Below are positions 12,317-35,796 of a DNA stretch of 61,096 nucleotides, in pieces. This DNA is from a virus. Within the stretch, counting starts at the first letter, position 1, and every line of letters begins with the position of its first letter. Below the pieces are notes generated by a model that ran no database searches, was not told the DNA's origin, and saw only the letters and a list, made by a program, of their open reading frames with translations. The translations under genes were made by a program, and so were the position numbers. The DNA is taken from IMG/VR virus record IMGVR_UViG_3300044633_000159, positions 1 to 61,096 of that record. One strand, 5' to 3'.

Positions 12317-13096
12317 TTAAAGATAGTCAATCACTTGCGAAGTGTCTACGTTTTCTATCAACTTGTTTATAGCTAACTTTTTTAATTCAGATATTCTAAC
12401 ATAAGAACTAGGACCTTTAAATCCTAATATACCAGAAATCTGATTAGCAGAGTGTTTGTCGCAATCTAATCCAAAACTAAGTCTTAACACTTCAGATTCT
12501 ATAAACGTTAAATGCTTTTTAAATAAACTAAATAAATAAGCGTTAAGTATATCTATATTATATTCTTTAGACTTGTCTTCGTATTGAGTTTCTCTGTGCT
12601 CTTCGTCTATTCCATTAGAGTCTGTATTTTCTTCAAAACCCTCGTCCATACTTTTAAATATACTGTTAAAGAACATCTCAACTATATATTTATCTTCAGG
12701 ATTTCTACGCATCTCGTTTAATTTATGTTCCGGAATACGTATAGAACCTCTATTAATGTCTATCGCGCGCCGTATCGAACCCTTTATCCGTTTAGACAGA
12801 AACGATTTAATCGTCTGTTCTTGGTCCTTAGATTCATTTATTTTGTCCCACTCTATTCTGTCAATAGCAAATATTAAACCTATACTACCTTCTTGAATTA
12901 TATCGGTTATATCCATAATACCTGACGCTTGATCAGCTGTAGAAAACTTTTTAGCTATATTTTCTACTAAAGGTAAAAACGTAGCTATTAGATCGTCTCT
13001 GGATAATTGATTGTAATCTTTTTTGTCGATGTTGCTTATAGTCTTTTTAAGGTCAGACTTATAACGCAAATAATTTTCTAGGTTATACTTTTTCAT
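12317..13096 (-). CDS. Sigma-70-family RNA polymerase sigma factor
   Basis: The 259-residue protein has region 2 at about residues 45-135 (DIIQEGSIGLIFAIDRIEW for core binding and FLSKRIKGSIRRAIDINRG for -10 recognition, followed by SIRIPEHK) and region 4 at about 193-250 (LTFIESEVLRLSFGLD and a helix-turn-helix through SANQISGILGF). Between them is an acidic linker; region 1.1 is absent. It would redirect host RNA polymerase to phage promoters. The natural target candidates are the repeated elements with GGACTT and GATAAT boxes on the same strand, but this link is inference. Its start overlaps the upstream gene by 14 bases. Confidence 0.88.
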   Translation of the reverse strand: MKKYNLENYLRYKSDLKKTISNIDKKDYNQLSRDDLIATFLPLVENIAKKFSTADQASGIMDITDIIQEGSIGLIFAIDRIEWDKINESKDQEQTIKSFLSKRIKGSIRRAIDINRGSIRIPEHKLNEMRRNPEDKYIVEMFFNSIFKSMDEGFEENTDSNGIDEEHRETQYEDKSKEYNIDILNAYLFSLFKKHLTFIESEVLRLSFGLDCDKHSANQISGILGFKGPSSYVRISELKKLAINKLIENVDTSQVIDYL

Positions 13097-16268: not shown

Positions 16269-17696
16269 CTAATTAGATTTTTTACTTTTTTTACCTTCGT
16301 CAACTACGACTTTACCTTCTTCTGAATAAGAGGTTACAGAACTATCATAGGATACTTGAACTTGTTTACCACCGGTTTTAACACATAAGTCTTTTAACTC
16401 AGTACTAAACTGCATTAAAGATACTGCATTAACCTTGTATGGTAAACTATCATAACCTACTCTATCTTCACCATCGTTAATAATTAAGATTTCAGGTTTT
16501 TCTACTGACAGATCTATGTCTAAGTTATGTAGTCTTTGCTTAGATATTTCTTGTGATATATGAGTAACTATGCCACCTATATCGGTAGTACCACCGTTTG
16601 GATTATTAGAAAACCATTTCCAGAAATCCATTACGTCTTCTCTGTTTTTAAGATGATGAAAATTCAAATGTTCAGACCTATATACAAAGTAACTGAAGAA
16701 CACTTCGGCTTCTTCCTTCATAACATACCGCAAACGGTCGATGAGTATAGCATTAACCCATATCTGTTTCTCAGGGTCATCCATACTGCCAGAAAAATCT
16801 AATAATATAATTATTTTCTGCTTTTGTTCTTTACGGTCAACAGGTACATTAACAGTTAAGTCTTTAGTTAAGAACTTAGTACGAAAGTTTGGAAACATTT
16901 TTTGGTATAACTCGATCTGACTAAACTGAGCATAGTCACGCATAATCTTTTTAGCATACTGATCAGAGTTGGATACAAGTTTTTCATCAACTTCTTTTTC
17001 AACCTTGAACTGATCGCCAAGTTTACCGACAATAGATATTTTATCTAGTATATCCATTTTACGCTGTTTACTTAACTCGTTAAAGTCAAGTTGTTCGTTT
17101 ATACTAGGATCAGAATAGGTTGCTCTATCAAAGTCTAAGGTTGTTTCATACTGTAGATCACCTTCTTCTTTTAATTTACCGTCTTGATAAACAGGAGCAC
17201 CACTTATTTGCTTGAATATAGCTATCGCTTGTTCTAACGGAGTATTACCTGGTATAAACTTTTCGAATATAGAGTCATACAAAGATTTTTTAGCTTCATA
17301 GTCTTGCTGTTGACTATCGGAAAGAGAATCAAAGTCTGAGAATTTTTCACTAATATATTCTTTTTCATCTATCATCTTGAAGTAACATACTCTAGCTAAG
17401 TCTTTAATAGTATCTATGGATTTTTCATTCCATACATTAGACTTTATTTTAATATCTGCTTTTGTAGGCGTTAAGTAAGTTACTGGATCTTTAACGAATA
17501 AATCTGAGTTATCATCTTCATCATAAGCGCCAGACCAAGAGTAGTTAGTCCATACACTCGGTTGCCAAGAGTATGAACTATATCTACTTTTACTTTTACT
17601 TTTACCACCATAACCATAACCATAACTTCCGTAGTTGTCATACTCAGACACATACTCGTCTTCGTCACCCCAATAAGAATTTTTAAATCTGCTCAT
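16269..17696 (-). CDS. VWA-domain protein (CobT-like C terminus), partner of the MoxR ATPase
   Basis: The 475-residue protein has a low-complexity Ser/Tyr/Gly N terminus (about residues 15-60), a helical middle, and a C-terminal von Willebrand A domain. The metal-ion-dependent adhesion site is visible: LLDFSGSMD near 300, GGTTDIG near 370 and INDGED near 407. MoxR-type AAA+ ATPases act with such VWA proteins to remodel or insert metal into target complexes; cobaltochelatase CobS-CobT is the best-known case and CobS-like genes are known from marine phages. The gene is 18 bases downstream of the ATPase gene and ends at a terminator, so the pair forms a transcription unit. The target is unknown. 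Confidence 0.85.
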   Translation of the reverse strand: MSRFKNSYWGDEDEYVSEYDNYGSYGYGYGGKSKSKSRYSSYSWQPSVWTNYSWSGAYDEDDNSDLFVKDPVTYLTPTKADIKIKSNVWNEKSIDTIKDLARVCYFKMIDEKEYISEKFSDFDSLSDSQQQDYEAKKSLYDSIFEKFIPGNTPLEQAIAIFKQISGAPVYQDGKLKEEGDLQYETTLDFDRATYSDPSINEQLDFNELSKQRKMDILDKISIVGKLGDQFKVEKEVDEKLVSNSDQYAKKIMRDYAQFSQIELYQKMFPNFRTKFLTKDLTVNVPVDRKEQKQKIIILLDFSGSMDDPEKQIWVNAILIDRLRYVMKEEAEVFFSYFVYRSEHLNFHHLKNREDVMDFWKWFSNNPNGGTTDIGGIVTHISQEISKQRLHNLDIDLSVEKPEILIINDGEDRVGYDSLPYKVNAVSLMQFSTELKDLCVKTGGKQVQVSYDSSVTSYSEEGKVVVDEGKKSKKSN

Positions 17697-17714
17697 GTTA
17701 GTTTGTTTTAAGGA

Positions 17715-18746
17715 TTAATCCATTATTGAAGATACAACTTGCTTTTTAGATAACGTAGTATACAACTCTGTAGCAGACTTGATTAAAGACGCATGATTTG
17801 TAGCTAAATCGTCTGACACTGTTAATTTCTTAATATCTCTAATAGCATTAGCCAATAAACCGATGTCATTAGTATATTTAGATTTTTCTTCACCAGTAAT
17901 TAAGTTATTAGCTTGCAACTCGTTAACAATAGCACCTAAGTCATCAGATAATTTTCTGAACTTTAATGTACTTTGATATTTCTTAAGAGTCTCAGCGATT
18001 AATGCAGGTTTTTTAGAGAACTCAGCGATAAAGTTTAATGAGTCTGGACCACATTCTTCGTATACTGTATAAGCAGTAACTGCAACCCTTGGAGATATAG
18101 TAATACCACCACGATGATATTCTTGAAGTAGATAAGGTATAATAGGATCTACATTGCCTTCGCCAAACTTAGTTTCTAACAACTTGTTATAACTAGCTTC
18201 AGTATAATTATCCCATACGACATTTAATTCTAACGGAAAACGCTCCATTAACGCTTTTAAAGATGCATTCTTAGAGAATTCTTCACGAGTTCTATTAGTA
18301 CAACAGATAATAAACTTTGTTTTAATAGGAAAGATCTGCGTACCGTTTCTGAATATCTTAGAAGATAATATATCTTTTAATTGCTCGAGGATAAAGTCTG
18401 GAGCATCGAATAATTCTTCAAAAATAACATACTCATGATTCATAAATGAATTCTCAACAAGGTATTCGATTTTACCTGTTTTCTCGAACGTAGGTATATC
18501 TAAACCGCCGAATAGTCTGTCAGTGGTCATACCTGTACCCATTGTAATAACGTAAGGATTAATGCCTTTTTCAGCAAGATACGCCATTGTTAATTCTGAT
18601 TTACCATGTCCACCAGGACCGTACAAGACGATGTTTTTACCTGTCTTCAACCCAATATCTAAGATATTAAGTGATTTGTCCATGAATACGAAGTCTGCGC
18701 CTACGCCAGATACTTCTACCGCTGTTGATTTTTTAGCTTTCGCCAT
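17715..18746 (-). CDS. MoxR-family AAA+ ATPase (CobS-like)
   Basis: The 343-residue protein has Walker A LYGPGGHGKSE near residues 42-52, a region matching the MoxR insert (TTDRLFGGLDIP), Walker B YVIFEELFDAP near 107 and sensor 1 IICCTNRTREEF near 148, and an arginine in LMERFPLEL typical of the finger region. The C-terminal 100 residues form a helical lid. It couples ATP hydrolysis to action of the VWA partner encoded just downstream. The upstream leader carries a hairpin and the tRNA-like element. Confidence 0.88.
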   Translation of the reverse strand: MAKAKKSTAVEVSGVGADFVFMDKSLNILDIGLKTGKNIVLYGPGGHGKSELTMAYLAEKGINPYVITMGTGMTTDRLFGGLDIPTFEKTGKIEYLVENSFMNHEYVIFEELFDAPDFILEQLKDILSSKIFRNGTQIFPIKTKFIICCTNRTREEFSKNASLKALMERFPLELNVVWDNYTEASYNKLLETKFGEGNVDPIIPYLLQEYHRGGITISPRVAVTAYTVYEECGPDSLNFIAEFSKKPALIAETLKKYQSTLKFRKLSDDLGAIVNELQANNLITGEEKSKYTNDIGLLANAIRDIKKLTVSDDLATNHASLIKSATELYTTLSKKQVVSSIMD

Positions 18747-18792: not shown

Positions 18793-18795
18793 TTC

Positions 18796-18860
18796 GTGAT
18801 TAAGAAGGACTCGAACCTTCAACTCAGTCTATGTCCCTGAGTCATCGCCTGATTTAATCG
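18796..18860 (-). tRNA. tRNA-like element lacking a normal D arm, CAU in the loop
   Basis: On the minus strand a perfect T arm (GAAGG, TTCGAGT, CCTTC) is followed by TTAATC, which pairs with GATTAA 55 bases upstream to make an acceptor stem; the terminal pair is a C-A mismatch as in bacterial initiator tRNA. Between them CTCAG and CTGAG enclose GGACATAGA, with CAT at the anticodon place. Only 12 bases remain where the D arm should be, and the base before CAT is A instead of T. At 65 bases this is either a degenerate tRNA, a tRNA mimic, or chance pairing beside a real T arm. Confidence 0.4.
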
Positions 18861-19450: not shown

Positions 19451-19490
19451 TGTCCACAGTAGGAATCGAACCTACGACCTGATGATTATG
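19451..19490 (-). tRNA. 3' half of an interrupted tRNA (anticodon CAU)
   Basis: On the minus strand this gives CATAA (anticodon and loop), TCATC (3' anticodon stem), AGGTC variable loop, a perfect T arm (GTAGG, TTCGATT, CCTAC), the acceptor strand TGTGGAC and discriminator A. The acceptor strand pairs perfectly over seven bases with GTCCACA of the 5' half at 20109-20115. Beyond the anticodon (towards 19500) the sequence no longer fits a tRNA. The HNH gene lies between the halves. Confidence 0.72.
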
Positions 19491-19558
19491 TAGCTCAAAT
19501 GGTTAAAATAGTTTATTTATGTGTAATAATATAACTATATAACTAAACGAATTGAAAA

Positions 19559-20104
19559 ATGGAAAAAGAAAAACTACAAGAACAAATATTATTGTCTAAG
19601 TCATCTAGAGAAATAGCTAAACATTTTGATGTTAGCCAAAGCACTATAAGATATTGGACAAAAAAATACCAATTAAGTATGCTGTTTAATAGCGAATATA
19701 ATGGTTTAAAGTGTAGAGTTTGTAACTCTTCATTAGTAAATATGCAGAAAGTTTACTGTTCAAATAACTGCAAAGTAAAAGGTCATTATATTAATTCTAA
19801 AAACAATACTAATTCTGTATATAGTCAAGAAAGTAGAGGTATAGAGCGTAAAAAACACTTTATGAACATACTAGGTGGTAAATGCAATTCTTGCGGTTAT
19901 AATAAGAATATTACCGCGTTAGAATTCCACCATGTAGATCCAACTACTAAAAAACTACAACTAAACATGAGAACTTTTTCCAATAATTCAATGAACGTTT
20001 TAATTGAAGAGGTTTACAAGTGTGAATTACTATGTGCTAATTGCCATAGAGAACACCATAATCCTCGTTTTAACTACTTTATTCAATCTGCTCTAACCGA
20101 CTGA
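19559..20104 (+). CDS. HNH homing-type endonuclease inserted in a tRNA gene
   Basis: The 181-residue protein has an N-terminal helix-turn-helix (SSREIAKHFDVSQSTIRYWT, residues about 16-35), a Cys4 zinc module (CRVC near 52 and CSNNC near 68) and a C-terminal HNH nuclease (CNSCGYN near 110, LEFHHVD near 122, CELLCANCHREHH near 154-166). This layout is typical of mobile HNH endonucleases in phages. It is the only plus-strand gene inside the minus arm. Its last codons and TGA stop lie inside the 5' half of the interrupted tRNA. It probably inserted here together with flanking tRNA-like sequence. Confidence 0.9.
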   Translation: MEKEKLQEQILLSKSSREIAKHFDVSQSTIRYWTKKYQLSMLFNSEYNGLKCRVCNSSLVNMQKVYCSNNCKVKGHYINSKNNTNSVYSQESRGIERKKHFMNILGGKCNSCGYNKNITALEFHHVDPTTKKLQLNMRTFSNNSMNVLIEEVYKCELLCANCHREHHNPRFNYFIQSALTD

Positions 20105-20115
20105 GCTATGTGGAC
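20084..20115 (-). tRNA. 5' half of the interrupted tRNA
   Basis: On the minus strand: acceptor GTCCACA, TA, D arm GCTC-AGTCGGTTA-GAGC (perfect four-pair stem with the GG of the D loop), A26, and then GAT..., the first three bases of an anticodon stem that would match TCATC of the 3' half. The next bases (TG, then AAT) do not continue the stem, so the break lies in the anticodon stem or loop. The sequence overlaps the end of the HNH gene on the other strand. Whether the tRNA is restored by splicing or is dead cannot be decided from sequence. Confidence 0.75.
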
Positions 20116-22029: not shown

Positions 22030-22072
22030 ATTATCTTACTAAAATTTTAACAAGTCCGTGCGGTGTATAGCA
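22030..22072 (-). promoter_or_regulatory. TGCTATACA plus GGACTT / 16 / GATAAT promoter-like element, copy 4
   Basis: TGCTATACA (22064-22072), then CACGGACTT, 16 bases, and GATAAT (22030-22035) on the minus strand. It would drive the acidic gene at 21646-21909. Confidence 0.7.
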
Positions 22073-22431: not shown

Positions 22432-22728
22432 TTATACTAATTCTGGTAACGCTCTAACGAAAGCGGGAAGATTGTTAGTATTGGTATAACTCCCGTACTT
22501 CTCGAAGCATGGCATGAGGTCGAATTTCGCTTTTAAAGCGTTATATACCTTATCATGGTCGTAGGTACATAGTACGTTTTTAGCGTTGGTAAAGGAAATA
22601 ACTGTGTTAGTTCCTATTAATGACTTGCGAATAACAAAGCGCTTAGTTGTAATAGCGTTTTTAGTTGTTACTACTGCTACAGGAGCTGCCACTGGCGCTA
22701 CGACTGTATTGGTTTTTACTTTGGACAT
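22432..22728 (-). CDS. Paralogue 1 of a four-copy small protein family
   Basis: The 98-residue protein starts at ATG 22728 (MSKVKTNTVV); the longer frame upstream runs through the promoter and is rejected. After an Ala/Val/Pro linker comes a core of about 70 residues shared by four adjacent genes: TTKRFVIRKSLIGTNTVISF, TYDHDKVYNALKAKFDLMPC and YGSYTNTNNLPAFVRALPEL. The core is basic, soluble and has one invariant Cys. Family and function are not recognised. The cassette has its own promoter, leader hairpin and terminator. Confidence 0.82.
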   Translation of the reverse strand: MSKVKTNTVVAPVAAPVAVVTTKNAITTKRFVIRKSLIGTNTVISFTNAKNVLCTYDHDKVYNALKAKFDLMPCFEKYGSYTNTNNLPAFVRALPELV

Positions 22729-22747
22729 AGGTAATAAATTATGGTTA

Positions 22748-22769
22748 TGAAGTCGAATATCGAACTTCA
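22748..22769 (-). other. Leader hairpin of paralogue 1
   Basis: TGAAGTTCGA and TCGACTTCA pair (one bulge) directly after the GATAATATATA box, so it would be the first structure in the transcript. The same position carries differently sequenced hairpins in the other cassettes. Confidence 0.6.
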
Positions 22770-22774
22770 TATAT

Positions 22775-22817
22775 ATTATCTCACTATAATAATTGTAAGT
22801 CCGTGTAGTGTATAGCA
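22775..22817 (-). promoter_or_regulatory. TGCTATACA plus GGACTT / 16 / GATAAT promoter-like element, copy 5
   Basis: TGCTATACA (22809-22817), CACGGACTT, a 16-base spacer ending ATAGTGA, and GATAATATATATG on the minus strand, upstream of paralogue 1. Confidence 0.72.
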
Positions 22818-22885
22818 CTTCACACTAAATAGATCGTTAGCGATTGAACACACCTCCGCCTGTCCATTCCGCTAATAAGCAGAGT

Positions 22886-22908
22886 AAAAAACCCTCTTTC
22901 GAGGGTCT
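22886..22908 (-). terminator. Terminator after paralogue 2
   Basis: ACCCTC and GAGGGT pair around GAAA and run into TTTTT on the minus strand. The same hairpin and its flank (CTGTCCATTCC on the plus strand) are repeated after paralogue 3. Confidence 0.9.
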
Positions 22909-22922
22909 TTATTTACCTTATA

Positions 22923-23207
22923 TTATACTAACTCTGGTAATGCTCTAACAAAAGCAGGTAAGTTATTGGTATTGGTATAACTACCATACTTTTCAAAGCA
23001 AGGCATGAGGTCAAACTTAGCTTTTAACTGGTGATAAACCTTGTCATGGTCATAAGTGCATAACTCATTCTTGTTGTTGGTAAAGCTAATTACTGTGTTA
23101 GTTCCTATTAGACTCTTTCTAATAACAAACCTTTTAGTAGTTAGTGCATTCTTGGTTACTACAGGAGCTACTGGTGCTACGACTGTGTTAGTTTTTACTT
23201 TTGACAT
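22923..23207 (-). CDS. Paralogue 2 of the four-copy family
   Basis: A 94-residue protein with the same start (MSKVKTNTVVAPVAP) as paralogue 1 and a nearly identical core through YGSYTNTNNLPAFVRALPEL. At the DNA level many codons differ by silent changes, so the protein sequence has been kept by selection since duplication. Own promoter and terminator. Confidence 0.84.
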   Translation of the reverse strand: MSKVKTNTVVAPVAPVVTKNALTTKRFVIRKSLIGTNTVISFTNNKNELCTYDHDKVYHQLKAKFDLMPCFEKYGSYTNTNNLPAFVRALPELV

Positions 23208-23228
23208 AGTAATAAATATTAAGTTACT

Positions 23229-23246
23229 GAGCTCATTATTAAGCTC
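23229..23246 (-). other. Leader hairpin of paralogue 2
   Basis: GAGCT pairs with AGCTC around TAATAATG immediately after the promoter box. Position is the same as in other cassettes, sequence is not. Confidence 0.58.
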
Positions 23247-23252
23247 GTATAT

Positions 23253-23295
23253 ATTATCTTGCTAAAAATCCTGTAAGTCCGTGTAGTGTATAGCA
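23253..23295 (-). promoter_or_regulatory. TGCTATACA plus GGACTT / 16 / GATAAT promoter-like element, copy 6
   Basis: TGCTATACA (23287-23295), CACGGACTT, 16 bases, GATAATATATACG on the minus strand, upstream of paralogue 2. Confidence 0.72.
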
Positions 23296-23368
23296 TAATG
23301 CACTATGATAAAGACTGTAAATGACAATTAAAGTCGGCTCTGCCTGTCCATTCCACCGATAGGTAGAA

Positions 23369-23391
23369 GAAAAAACCCTCTTTCGAGGGTC
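23369..23391 (-). terminator. Terminator after paralogue 3
   Basis: ACCCTC and GAGGGT with a GAAA loop, followed by TTTTTTC on the minus strand; a near copy of the terminator at 22886. Confidence 0.9.
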
Positions 23392-23406
23392 TTTAGTTGA
23401 TTACTG

Positions 23407-23643
23407 TTATACTAACTCTTTAAGTGATCTAACGAACGCTGGTAGGTTATTAGTGTTAGTGTAACTACCATACTTATTAAAACAAGGCATAGAATCAAAC
23501 TTGTCTTTTAGTTGGTTGTAGACTTTGTCATGATCATAAGTCATTAACTCATTCTTGTTGTTGGTAAAACTGATAACAGTGTTTGTACCAATTAAACTTT
23601 TTCTGATCACAAATCTTTTTGTAGTAATAGTGTTTACTGACAT
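23407..23643 (-). CDS. Paralogue 3 of the four-copy family, short N terminus
   Basis: The 78-residue protein starts at ATG 23643 (MSVNTITTKRFVIRKSLIG); the in-frame ATG at 23685 lies in the leader hairpin and is rejected. It lacks the Ala/Val/Pro linker, which shows that the core alone is sufficient. The core carries ELMTYDHDKVYNQLKDKFDS where others have Cys before TY, so that Cys is not essential, while the one in MPCF is kept. Confidence 0.82.
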   Translation of the reverse strand: MSVNTITTKRFVIRKSLIGTNTVISFTNNKNELMTYDHDKVYNQLKDKFDSMPCFNKYGSYTNTNNLPAFVRSLKELV

Positions 23644-23661
23644 AGTATAAAATATTAAGTT

Positions 23662-23685
23662 ATGGAATCCATTATTAAATTCCAT
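23662..23685 (-). other. Leader hairpin of paralogue 3
   Basis: ATGGAAT and ATTCCAT pair perfectly (seven pairs) around TTAATAATGG right after the promoter. Confidence 0.62.
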
Positions 23686-23689
23686 ATAT

Positions 23690-23731
23690 ATTATCTGACT
23701 ATAAAACTCGTAAGTCCGTGCGTGTATAGCA
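23690..23731 (-). promoter_or_regulatory. TGCTATACA plus GGACTT / 16 / GATAAT promoter-like element, copy 7
   Basis: TGCTATACA (23723-23731), one base closer to CACGGACTT than in copy 6, then 16 bases and GATAATATATATG. Confidence 0.72.
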
Positions 23732-23742
23732 TCGGAAGGATA

Positions 23743-23768
23743 TAAAAAAAGACCACCGAAGTGGCCTT
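23743..23768 (-). terminator. Terminator after paralogue 4 and the small membrane gene
   Basis: GGCCAC and GTGGTC pair around TTCG and are followed by seven T on the minus strand. Confidence 0.9.
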
Positions 23769-23773
23769 TAAAA

Positions 23774-23875
23774 CTATATACTTATCAAACTACGTATAAC
23801 AAAGTATAACGCTGCATAGATGATAAAGAATATCTGAAGTCTCGCTTGACTAAAGAATCTGAGTATGTATTTCAT
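23774..23875 (-). CDS. 33-residue membrane peptide
   Basis: A short frame (MKYILRFFSQARLQIFFIIY start) with a basic N terminus and one hydrophobic helix lies between paralogue 4 and the terminator, so it would be co-transcribed with paralogue 4. It is the third tiny membrane peptide in the early arm. Confidence 0.5.
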   Translation of the reverse strand: MKYILRFFSQARLQIFFIIYAALYFVIRSLISI

Positions 23876-23933
23876 ATTAAGATATATTAGATTAATAAAT
23901 AAAGCAGTTTAATGACTTGCTTAGGTCGGTTGA

Positions 23934-24191
23934 TTAAACTATCTCTTTCAATGCTCTAACGAACGCTGGGAGATTGTTTGTGTTCGTGTATGAACCATAC
24001 TTAGCGAAGCATGGCATTGCATCGAACTTGTCTTTGAGCTGCTCATAGACTTTGTCGTGATTGTAAGTGCATACGACTTGCTTTGCATTTGTGAATGAGA
24101 TCACTGTGTTAGTACCGATCAGAGACTTTCTGATAACGAATCTTTTAGTAGTAATTTCTACTGTTGCTGGTAATGTGTTTAATTTAGACAT
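23934..24191 (-). CDS. Paralogue 4 of the four-copy family
   Basis: An 85-residue protein (MSKLNTLPATVEITTKRFVI start) with the shared core, including VCTYNHDKVYEQLKDKFDAM and YGSYTNTNNLPAFVRALKEI. It is the gene nearest the divergence point and probably among the first transcribed. Codon use differs from the other copies, mainly at silent positions. Confidence 0.83.
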   Translation of the reverse strand: MSKLNTLPATVEITTKRFVIRKSLIGTNTVISFTNAKQVVCTYNHDKVYEQLKDKFDAMPCFAKYGSYTNTNNLPAFVRALKEIV

Positions 24192-24209
24192 AATAAATTT
24201 ATTTAATTA

Positions 24210-24225
24210 TAAGCTTAATTGCTTA
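24210..24225 (-). other. Leader hairpin of paralogue 4
   Basis: TAAGC and GCTTA pair around AATTAA after the promoter; shorter than the others. Confidence 0.5.
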
Positions 24226-24232
24226 CATATAT

Positions 24233-24308
24233 ATTATCCAATATAAATTCTTGTAAGTCCGTGTGTTATAAAATATATATATAAAGTAGTAAGTCCGTGT
24301 GTATAGCA
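24233..24308 (-). promoter_or_regulatory. Promoter-like element copy 8 with a second GGACTT box upstream
   Basis: CACGGACTT, 16 bases and GATAATATATATG (24233-24260). A second CACGGACTT follows further upstream (24291-24296) with TGCTATACA (24300-24308) directly against it, separated from the first by an AT-only stretch. The tandem arrangement suggests a strong or doubly controlled early promoter. Confidence 0.7.
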
Positions 24309-34251: not shown

Positions 34252-35796
34252 ATGTCAGACGCTATAGTCAAAAATTTAAGTTTCGGTAAAGACGCGAGTG
34301 ATAAAGTATTTGCCGGTATAGAGAAGTTATCAAAAGCAGTAAGTTCTACACTAGGAGCAAGTGGCAAATGTGTTCTACTTGAAGATTCAACAGGTAGACC
34401 TGTCATTACCAAAGATGGTGTAACCGTTGCTGATTCAATTATATTGTTAGATCCTGTAGAAAATATGGGAGCAACTTTATTAAAAGAAGCAGCGCGAAAA
34501 ACTGTTAGAGAAGCAGGTGATGGTACAACTACAGCCACTGTGTTAGCACACGCTATATTAAAGAATGCTTATAAAGTAGAAAACCCAGATACTAGAAAGA
34601 TTAAAGAAGGTATTAACAAAGCTGTTGACAACGTTGTTAAATATCTTGAAGATATGGCAGTTTTAGTTGATGATAATATGTTAGATCACATCGCTACTAT
34701 ATCTACAAACAATGATCCTGAATTAGGTAAGTTAGTTGGTAATGCTTTTAGAGCGGTAGGTAATACTGGTATTGTAATGATGGAAACATCTTCCGATGCT
34801 GAATGTAGTTTACAATTAGTTGAAGGAGTGCAATGCTCAATGGGTTTAACAAACTCACATTTTATAACTAATCATAAGAATAAGACAGCAGAACTAGATA
34901 ATCCTTTAGTTTTATTAGTTGAGTCACCAATAGAGAACGTCCGTCAACTACAAAAGATATTAGAGTATGTTATAAAGAACAATAGATCTTTATTAATTGT
35001 TGGTGATATGGAACAGATAGTATTATCTACATTAGCAATGAATAAGTCTAAAGGTAATATAAAAATCAATGTTATAAATGCACCAACTTATGGTATTAAT
35101 AGAAAAGAGATATTTGATGATCTTGCTTTATTAACTGGTGCAACTTTAATAAACGAAGATCTTGGTGATGATTTAGATTTGATAGATCCGTCAATGCTTG
35201 GCGTTTGTTTTAAAAGTATAACAAACCACGAAGAAACAATACTCCACGTTGGAGAACCAAATGAAGAAGTTTTAGATATAATTACTGATATTAAGAAATC
35301 ATTATCAGAAAACAATAATAGCGCTACTATTATAAAACTAGAAAAAAGATTAGCTAGGTTAACAGCAAAAATATCTGTAGTTAAAGTTGGCGCTAATTCA
35401 GAAATAGAGTTAAAAGAAAAGTCGGATAGAATTGAAGACGCTATTTGTGCTACAAAAGCCGCTATTAAAGAAGGTATCGTCCCAGGTGGAGGAATAGCTT
35501 TATTAAACGCTTCATATAATATAGATACTTTTTCTATTGGTGAAGAAATATTATTAGATTCTATTAGATCACCATTTAATACAATATTAAGTAATGCTGG
35601 AATAGAAGTTATGTCAGAAAAGATTGTAACAGGTATTGGTTATGGTTTAAATGTTATAACTGGAGAAACAGTAGATATGATTAAAGCAGGTATTATTGAT
35701 CCACTACTTGTTACAAAGAGTGCTTTGAAAAATGCTGCGTCTGTTGCTACAACGATACTTTCAACTGATTGTGTAATTAATAACTTGAGAGCATAA
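34252..35796 (+). CDS. groL: Chaperonin GroEL (Hsp60), phage-encoded
   Basis: The 514-residue protein is a full-length group I chaperonin. ATP-site residues are kept: TKDGVTVA with Asp near 55, GDGTTTATVLA with catalytic Asp90, and EDAICATKAAIKEG with the Asp equivalent to E. coli Asp398, followed by PGGGIALL near 410. It is about 30 residues shorter than the E. coli protein and lacks the Gly-Gly-Met tail. With the GroES encoded directly downstream it should fold phage virion proteins such as the capsid protein. A 57-base AT-rich gap upstream may hold its promoter; no box was recognised. Confidence 0.95.
   Translation: MSDAIVKNLSFGKDASDKVFAGIEKLSKAVSSTLGASGKCVLLEDSTGRPVITKDGVTVADSIILLDPVENMGATLLKEAARKTVREAGDGTTTATVLAHAILKNAYKVENPDTRKIKEGINKAVDNVVKYLEDMAVLVDDNMLDHIATISTNNDPELGKLVGNAFRAVGNTGIVMMETSSDAECSLQLVEGVQCSMGLTNSHFITNHKNKTAELDNPLVLLVESPIENVRQLQKILEYVIKNNRSLLIVGDMEQIVLSTLAMNKSKGNIKINVINAPTYGINRKEIFDDLALLTGATLINEDLGDDLDLIDPSMLGVCFKSITNHEETILHVGEPNEEVLDIITDIKKSLSENNNSATIIKLEKRLARLTAKISVVKVGANSEIELKEKSDRIEDAICATKAAIKEGIVPGGGIALLNASYNIDTFSIGEEILLDSIRSPFNTILSNAGIEVMSEKIVTGIGYGLNVITGETVDMIKAGIIDPLLVTKSALKNAASVATTILSTDCVINNLRA

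Follow-up and report, generated by a model that had tools for sequence, protein, structure and literature searches.

Why does a phage keep four nearly identical small genes side by side, each with control elements of its own? The window analysed here, a virus record of 61,096 bases, raises this question at the point where its two strands diverge. The plus strand carries mainly structural genes and the minus strand replication and small genes; a four-gene array is the first feature of the minus strand at this late/early divergence. The genes are copy A (23934–24191, 85 aa), which lies beside the divergent late region as the first gene of the minus-strand region, copy B (23407–23643, 78 aa), copy C1 (22923–23207, 94 aa) and copy C2 (22432–22728, 98 aa), the last with an N-terminal Ala/Val/Pro-rich tail. 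These four adjacent minus-strand genes had been pointed out in a first-pass annotation of the sequence; the ORFs bear them out, and a profile search found exactly four family members in the whole record. The common core, estimated there at about 70 residues, comprises 67, and any two copies share 57–63 of them (85–94% identity).

Could such a repeat be the product of chance or of mis-assembly? We consider the probability of this practically negligible. Most silent positions differ between the copies, and independent contigs also contain arrays of two or three copies, which refutes an assembly artefact. Over the 67-codon core, dN between the window copies is 0.07–0.17 and pS is 0.76–1.14; since synonymous sites are thus saturated, no more can be said of dN/dS between these copies than that it is low. 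For genes of the same slot in other phages dS can still be measured, and the ratio there is 0.02–0.13 and so not near 1. Saturation at this level of core identity means that the copies arose long ago and that purifying selection on them is strong, in agreement with the initial claim of selection on the protein after duplication and not recent copying. The idea that synonymous divergence goes beyond saturation, as a guard against recombination, was discarded, as the number of codons shared between copies fits plain saturation.

The copies of different phages can be matched to each other by position. Among same-slot genes of seven phages, residue identity across phages is 0.883, compared with 0.833 between different slots of one phage, and none of 5000 label permutations gave a same-slot value as high. 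In a nucleotide tree the B and C genes group by slot, and the A genes do so more loosely; slot A counterparts are found in loci L001, L003–L006 and L014. Slots A, B and C, to which copies A, B and C2 belong, are orthologous across phages, and both the same-slot likeness and the tree grouping indicate that the duplications predate the split of these phages. Certain fixed positions, and the C-type tail, distinguish the slots. Copy C1 is an additional C-like duplicate: it is an extra C-tailed copy present in the window only, with a core intermediate between B and C. It may perhaps have come from recombination, yet we did not retain a B × C exchange as its origin, since the signal is no more than suggestive: of four break points tried, one gave P 0.036 without correction.

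This bears directly on why four copies are kept, for which the first-pass annotation had offered dosage or slightly different targets. On the pure dosage reading, the phage needs a great deal of one protein, and the copies only multiply output. The near-identity of the residues, the shared control elements and a copy number varying from one to four agree with it. However, the slots retain separate identities across phages, with their fixed differences and the C-type tail, and one copy suffices for most relatives. Since the slots are kept as orthologues, division of roles explains the copies better than dosage alone, which we regard as rather unlikely; the second half of the proposal gains support, as orthologous slots speak for divided roles beside dosage. 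The one-to-four copy series with its orthologous slots makes dosage versus division of labour directly testable.

How widespread is the family? At least 501 relatives were confirmed when IMG/VR was scanned with a diverse alignment, and a divergent second subfamily (NFVVRKSW type) adds 154 further IMG/VR loci, although contigs may overlap between the two scans. Each of the 80 loci of the NFVVRKSW type that were read has one copy. Over 143 main-set loci, some of them cut at contig ends, there is one copy in 106, two in 26 and three in 10; four is the maximum and occurs in the window alone. Whole-record searches of 26 relatives found one to three copies in each; the family is present in all 26, which had been chosen for carrying it, and in 11 of 13 long records picked via a sigma-like gene. 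Neighbouring genes are conserved around the family at the late/early divergence of related phages, but the families to which they belong offer no functional clue. None of four queries credibly matched any of 50,697 phage records, and divergent members sought among isolated phages were not found. Relatives in bacterial genome assemblies lie on 11 contigs of 3–55 kb in metagenome bins of unrelated phyla; rather than bacterial genes, they are most likely mis-binned phage contigs. One record, G028 (129.5 kb, loci L197 and L198), is about twice the usual length, with a pair of family copies near 13 kb and, near 76 kb, a single copy of the divergent subfamily; it is possibly two phages joined in assembly.

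As for the phages themselves, the window terminase shares 64.5% identity with its counterpart in MW202828.1 and about 45% with the terminases of Flavobacterium podoviruses; Cellulophaga phages appear among the further matches. Elemovirus and the Cellulophaga podoviruses (NC_055852; MW202828) resemble the window in their divergent late and early strands, related terminase and phage GroEL/GroES, but at the sensitivity used no member of the gene family was found in them. The window has a GroEL-like gene at 34252–35796 on the plus strand, and in 74 related loci GroEL-like genes are found close to the array on its late side. Tentatively, and as part of the overall interpretation given below, we place the family-bearing phages, whose genomes are of about 60–70 kb, in an uncultured group of podovirus-like phages of Bacteroidota in which the family would be near-core.

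What kind of protein is it? Eight positions (F, Y, H, D, C, K, P and R) are conserved to 99% or more in a set of 226 distinct domain sequences, and this core is the mark of the family, found in the members tested. The conserved C has one known exception, a Ser in L138; this, together with the lack of fold support, led us to reject a catalytic cysteine. For a 77-residue member AlphaFold2 predicted a compact fold in which four strands are followed by two helices and one strand (pLDDT 93.8, pTM 0.79), and the model of copy C2 has a similar order of elements plus a disordered tail. Fold searches with the models against PDB and viral models gave no match (none in PDB with E up to 0.001), nor did sequence searches against proteins of solved structure. 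Profiles of Pfam, PHROGs, NCBIfam and PADLOC gave scattered matches with a best E of about 0.001, far below curated cut-offs where these exist; DUF3198, SspE, YonK, PorX and other weak matches are of chance size. Thus the annotator's impression of an unfamiliar family holds in all five of these databases, by sequence or by fold, and no ordinary known family turned up.

The net charge of 188 members is always positive, with a mean of +7.5. Positive charge alone is insufficient evidence of nucleic-acid binding, and no fold match points there. A basic, small, conserved and possibly abundant protein could also serve a structural or DNA-packaging role, for example as a genome-coating protein, instead of acting in takeover. 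We find this quite unlikely, because the gene sits on the replication-side strand with its own promoters, distant from the virion genes.

Another alternative is counter-defence, in which a small abundant protein neutralises a component of host defence or its signalling molecule, and the copies provide dose or target variants. The early-side position, the small size, several near-invariant polar residues and slots with slot-specific residues would all suit such a protein. Unlike typical arms-race proteins, however, this one has a core that is nearly constant over hundreds of phages, and its presence in nearly all records searched (the selected 26 and 11 of 13) differs from counter-defence genes, which are usually accessory. 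Moreover, the family has no match in PADLOC or Pfam, and a fold search with the family model found none in PDB. On balance, we hold counter-defence to be improbable.

We then turn to the control elements. The claim that each cassette has the same type of promoter is borne out by a promoter-like element at all four copies: CACGGACTT, 16 nt and GATAATATAT occur upstream of each with zero mismatches, on the minus strand at 24229–24263 (A), 23686–23720 (B), 23249–23283 (C1) and 22771–22805 (C2). The sequence GATAATATA at the four array sites provides candidate start points. The same or a near form of the element also occurs at 22060, 21638, 19353 and 14494. GATAATA precedes 94% of family members, including those that are distant, and is found before other early-side gene clusters at 84–93% in a few and 0–30% in most. 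The promoter pattern and the family occur together in 13 of 14 contig stretches; in the remaining one, L159, the pattern is a match of another kind, apparently inside coding sequence. E. coli-type sigma-70 sites were dismissed, being no more frequent in the region than in shuffles. Copy A has two successive CACGGACTT elements and one GATAATATAT within 24229–24299 on the minus strand (the second CACGGACTT at 24291–24299), and a similar doubling is seen in L002, L009, L010 and L162.

Promoters of the Bacteroidota primary sigma factor have TTTG at −33 and TAnnTTTG at −7 (PMC6847099, PMC9723704). The array element agrees with this consensus in part. The aligned array promoters show TATAWNYG on the −7 side, with the final G at a fixed place and, in most copies, TTAC at the corresponding distance of 19 nt upstream, and the array leaders likewise lack a Shine-Dalgarno sequence. 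They differ in having no TTTG at −33, a variable T at −7 and −6, and a conserved GATAA before the box. The window encodes a phage sigma-like factor (12317–13096, minus strand; phrog_351, E 1e-15), and such a gene is present in 23 of the 26 family-bearing records. Since the element departs from the Bacteroidota consensus and the phages share this gene, the sigma-like factor is a possible reader of the element. If so, the array would not be immediate early; its early timing is itself suggested by position and strand only.

Directly upstream of the array promoters lies a further repeated sequence, TGCTATACA, at 24300–24308 on the minus strand, with equivalents at 23723–23731, 23287–23295 and 22809–22817. 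About 9 more minus-strand sites are found in the window, and others in L001–L028, L053, L136, L196 and L197. It is far commoner on the early strand than expected (TGCTATAC, 14 sites against 0.8). In several relatives the sites before array promoters are inverted (TGTATAGCA), and the downstream sites are forward. It also occurs within coding sequence, several times as Ala-Ile-His.

Each copy has a leader hairpin as well, as had been noticed from the sequence, with fold z from −2.0 to −4.7: at 24208–24227 for A (−2.0), 23661–23686 for B (−3.2), 23225–23249 for C1 (−4.2) and 22746–22771 for C2 (−4.7), all on the minus strand. Relatives have compensatory changes in the hairpins of B and C2. Across relatives, eight cells have changes on both sides of the stem, a number reached in none of 500 shuffles, and every slid control was far lower. 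The individual terminators described for C2, C1 and B are present too. That of C2 (22402–22421) was found by the terminator scan. Those of C1 (22891–22906) and B (23375–23390) are hairpins followed by a T run, ACCCTCGAAAGAGGGTTTTTT, read directly from the sequence, the scan reporting both palindromes on the opposite strand only. Copy A is followed, as described, by a gene for a predicted 33-aa membrane peptide (MKYILRFF..., 23774–23875) and then by a terminator from the scan common to both (23748–23769); all these features are on the minus strand. The hairpin is characteristic of the close multi-copy clade, in which 31 members have a mean z of −2.7; most distant phages lack it (mean z +0.1, n = 41). 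Likewise, terminators follow 44% of close-clade members compared with 6% of distant ones. Because hairpin and terminators are largely confined to this clade, the insulated cassette looks like a derived state accompanying gene multiplication.

Repeated control units before small phage genes have precedents. In T4-type phages, Arbiol et al. in 2010 reportedly described a mobile early-promoter/stem-loop unit recombining between unrelated genes. The likeness lies in small genes with repeated promoter and hairpin units, but the window units carry paralogues, have another promoter type and place the hairpin in the 5′ leader beside separate terminators. In cluster K mycobacteriophages, start-associated sequences are 13-bp repeats at translation starts before many small, unrelated genes, partly with 17-bp imperfect inverted repeats (PMC3203893). 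Here too a repeated upstream element, in part with inverted repeats, precedes many small genes; in contrast, the window has a promoter-like element and a 5′ hairpin of varying sequence before paralogues. Inspection of the array leaders showed that the 13-bp repeat GGGATAGGAGCCC at the start codon, described for cluster K (PMC3203893), is absent from them. What is mainly new here is the extent of the family, its orthologous slots, the covariation in the leader hairpin and the lack of known relatives.

Taken together, our favoured though tentative interpretation, which we put somewhat below even, is that the array encodes an early factor of Bacteroidota phages whose target during takeover would be nucleic acid or transcription, expressed from per-cassette units with drifted slots. 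Each cassette would be an independent transcription unit at the head of the early-side strand, its 5′-terminal hairpin slowing mRNA decay and its terminator insulating it from the next, which would allow a small basic protein to be produced abundantly at the first reading of the region. With less assurance, this protein might bind nucleic acid or the transcription apparatus and help turn the cell over to the phage, and slots A, B and C might have drifted to partly different partners or times, C1 being a further duplicate. A stronger version, which we think doubtful, combines a new fold with a near-universal takeover factor of a large, uncultured set of Bacteroidota phages that in one clade has become three specialised paralogues in insulated cassettes read by the phage sigma factor. 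In any case, a protein that stays almost unchanged in hundreds of phages yet has neither a described relative nor a match by fold points to a blind spot in present knowledge of the onset of infection by Bacteroidota phages.

Several other features of the minus strand were observed. At 16269–18746, a MoxR-type ATPase gene precedes one of von Willebrand A-domain-like type. A tRNA-like gene at 19451–20114, with left end GTCCACATAGCTCAG and a right end containing CAT and TGTGGACA, is split by an insert with an HNH-like endonuclease gene on the opposite strand (19559–20104); it is absent from the ARAGORN report, and its score with the Rfam tRNA model is below threshold. A second tRNA-like stretch at 18795–18860, in which ARAGORN found no gene, has acceptor and T arms, an odd D region, and TGCTATACA and a small hairpin upstream. 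TGCTATACA also occurs upstream of tRNA-like genes, and similar tRNA-like stretches follow it in L004, L005, L010 and L014.
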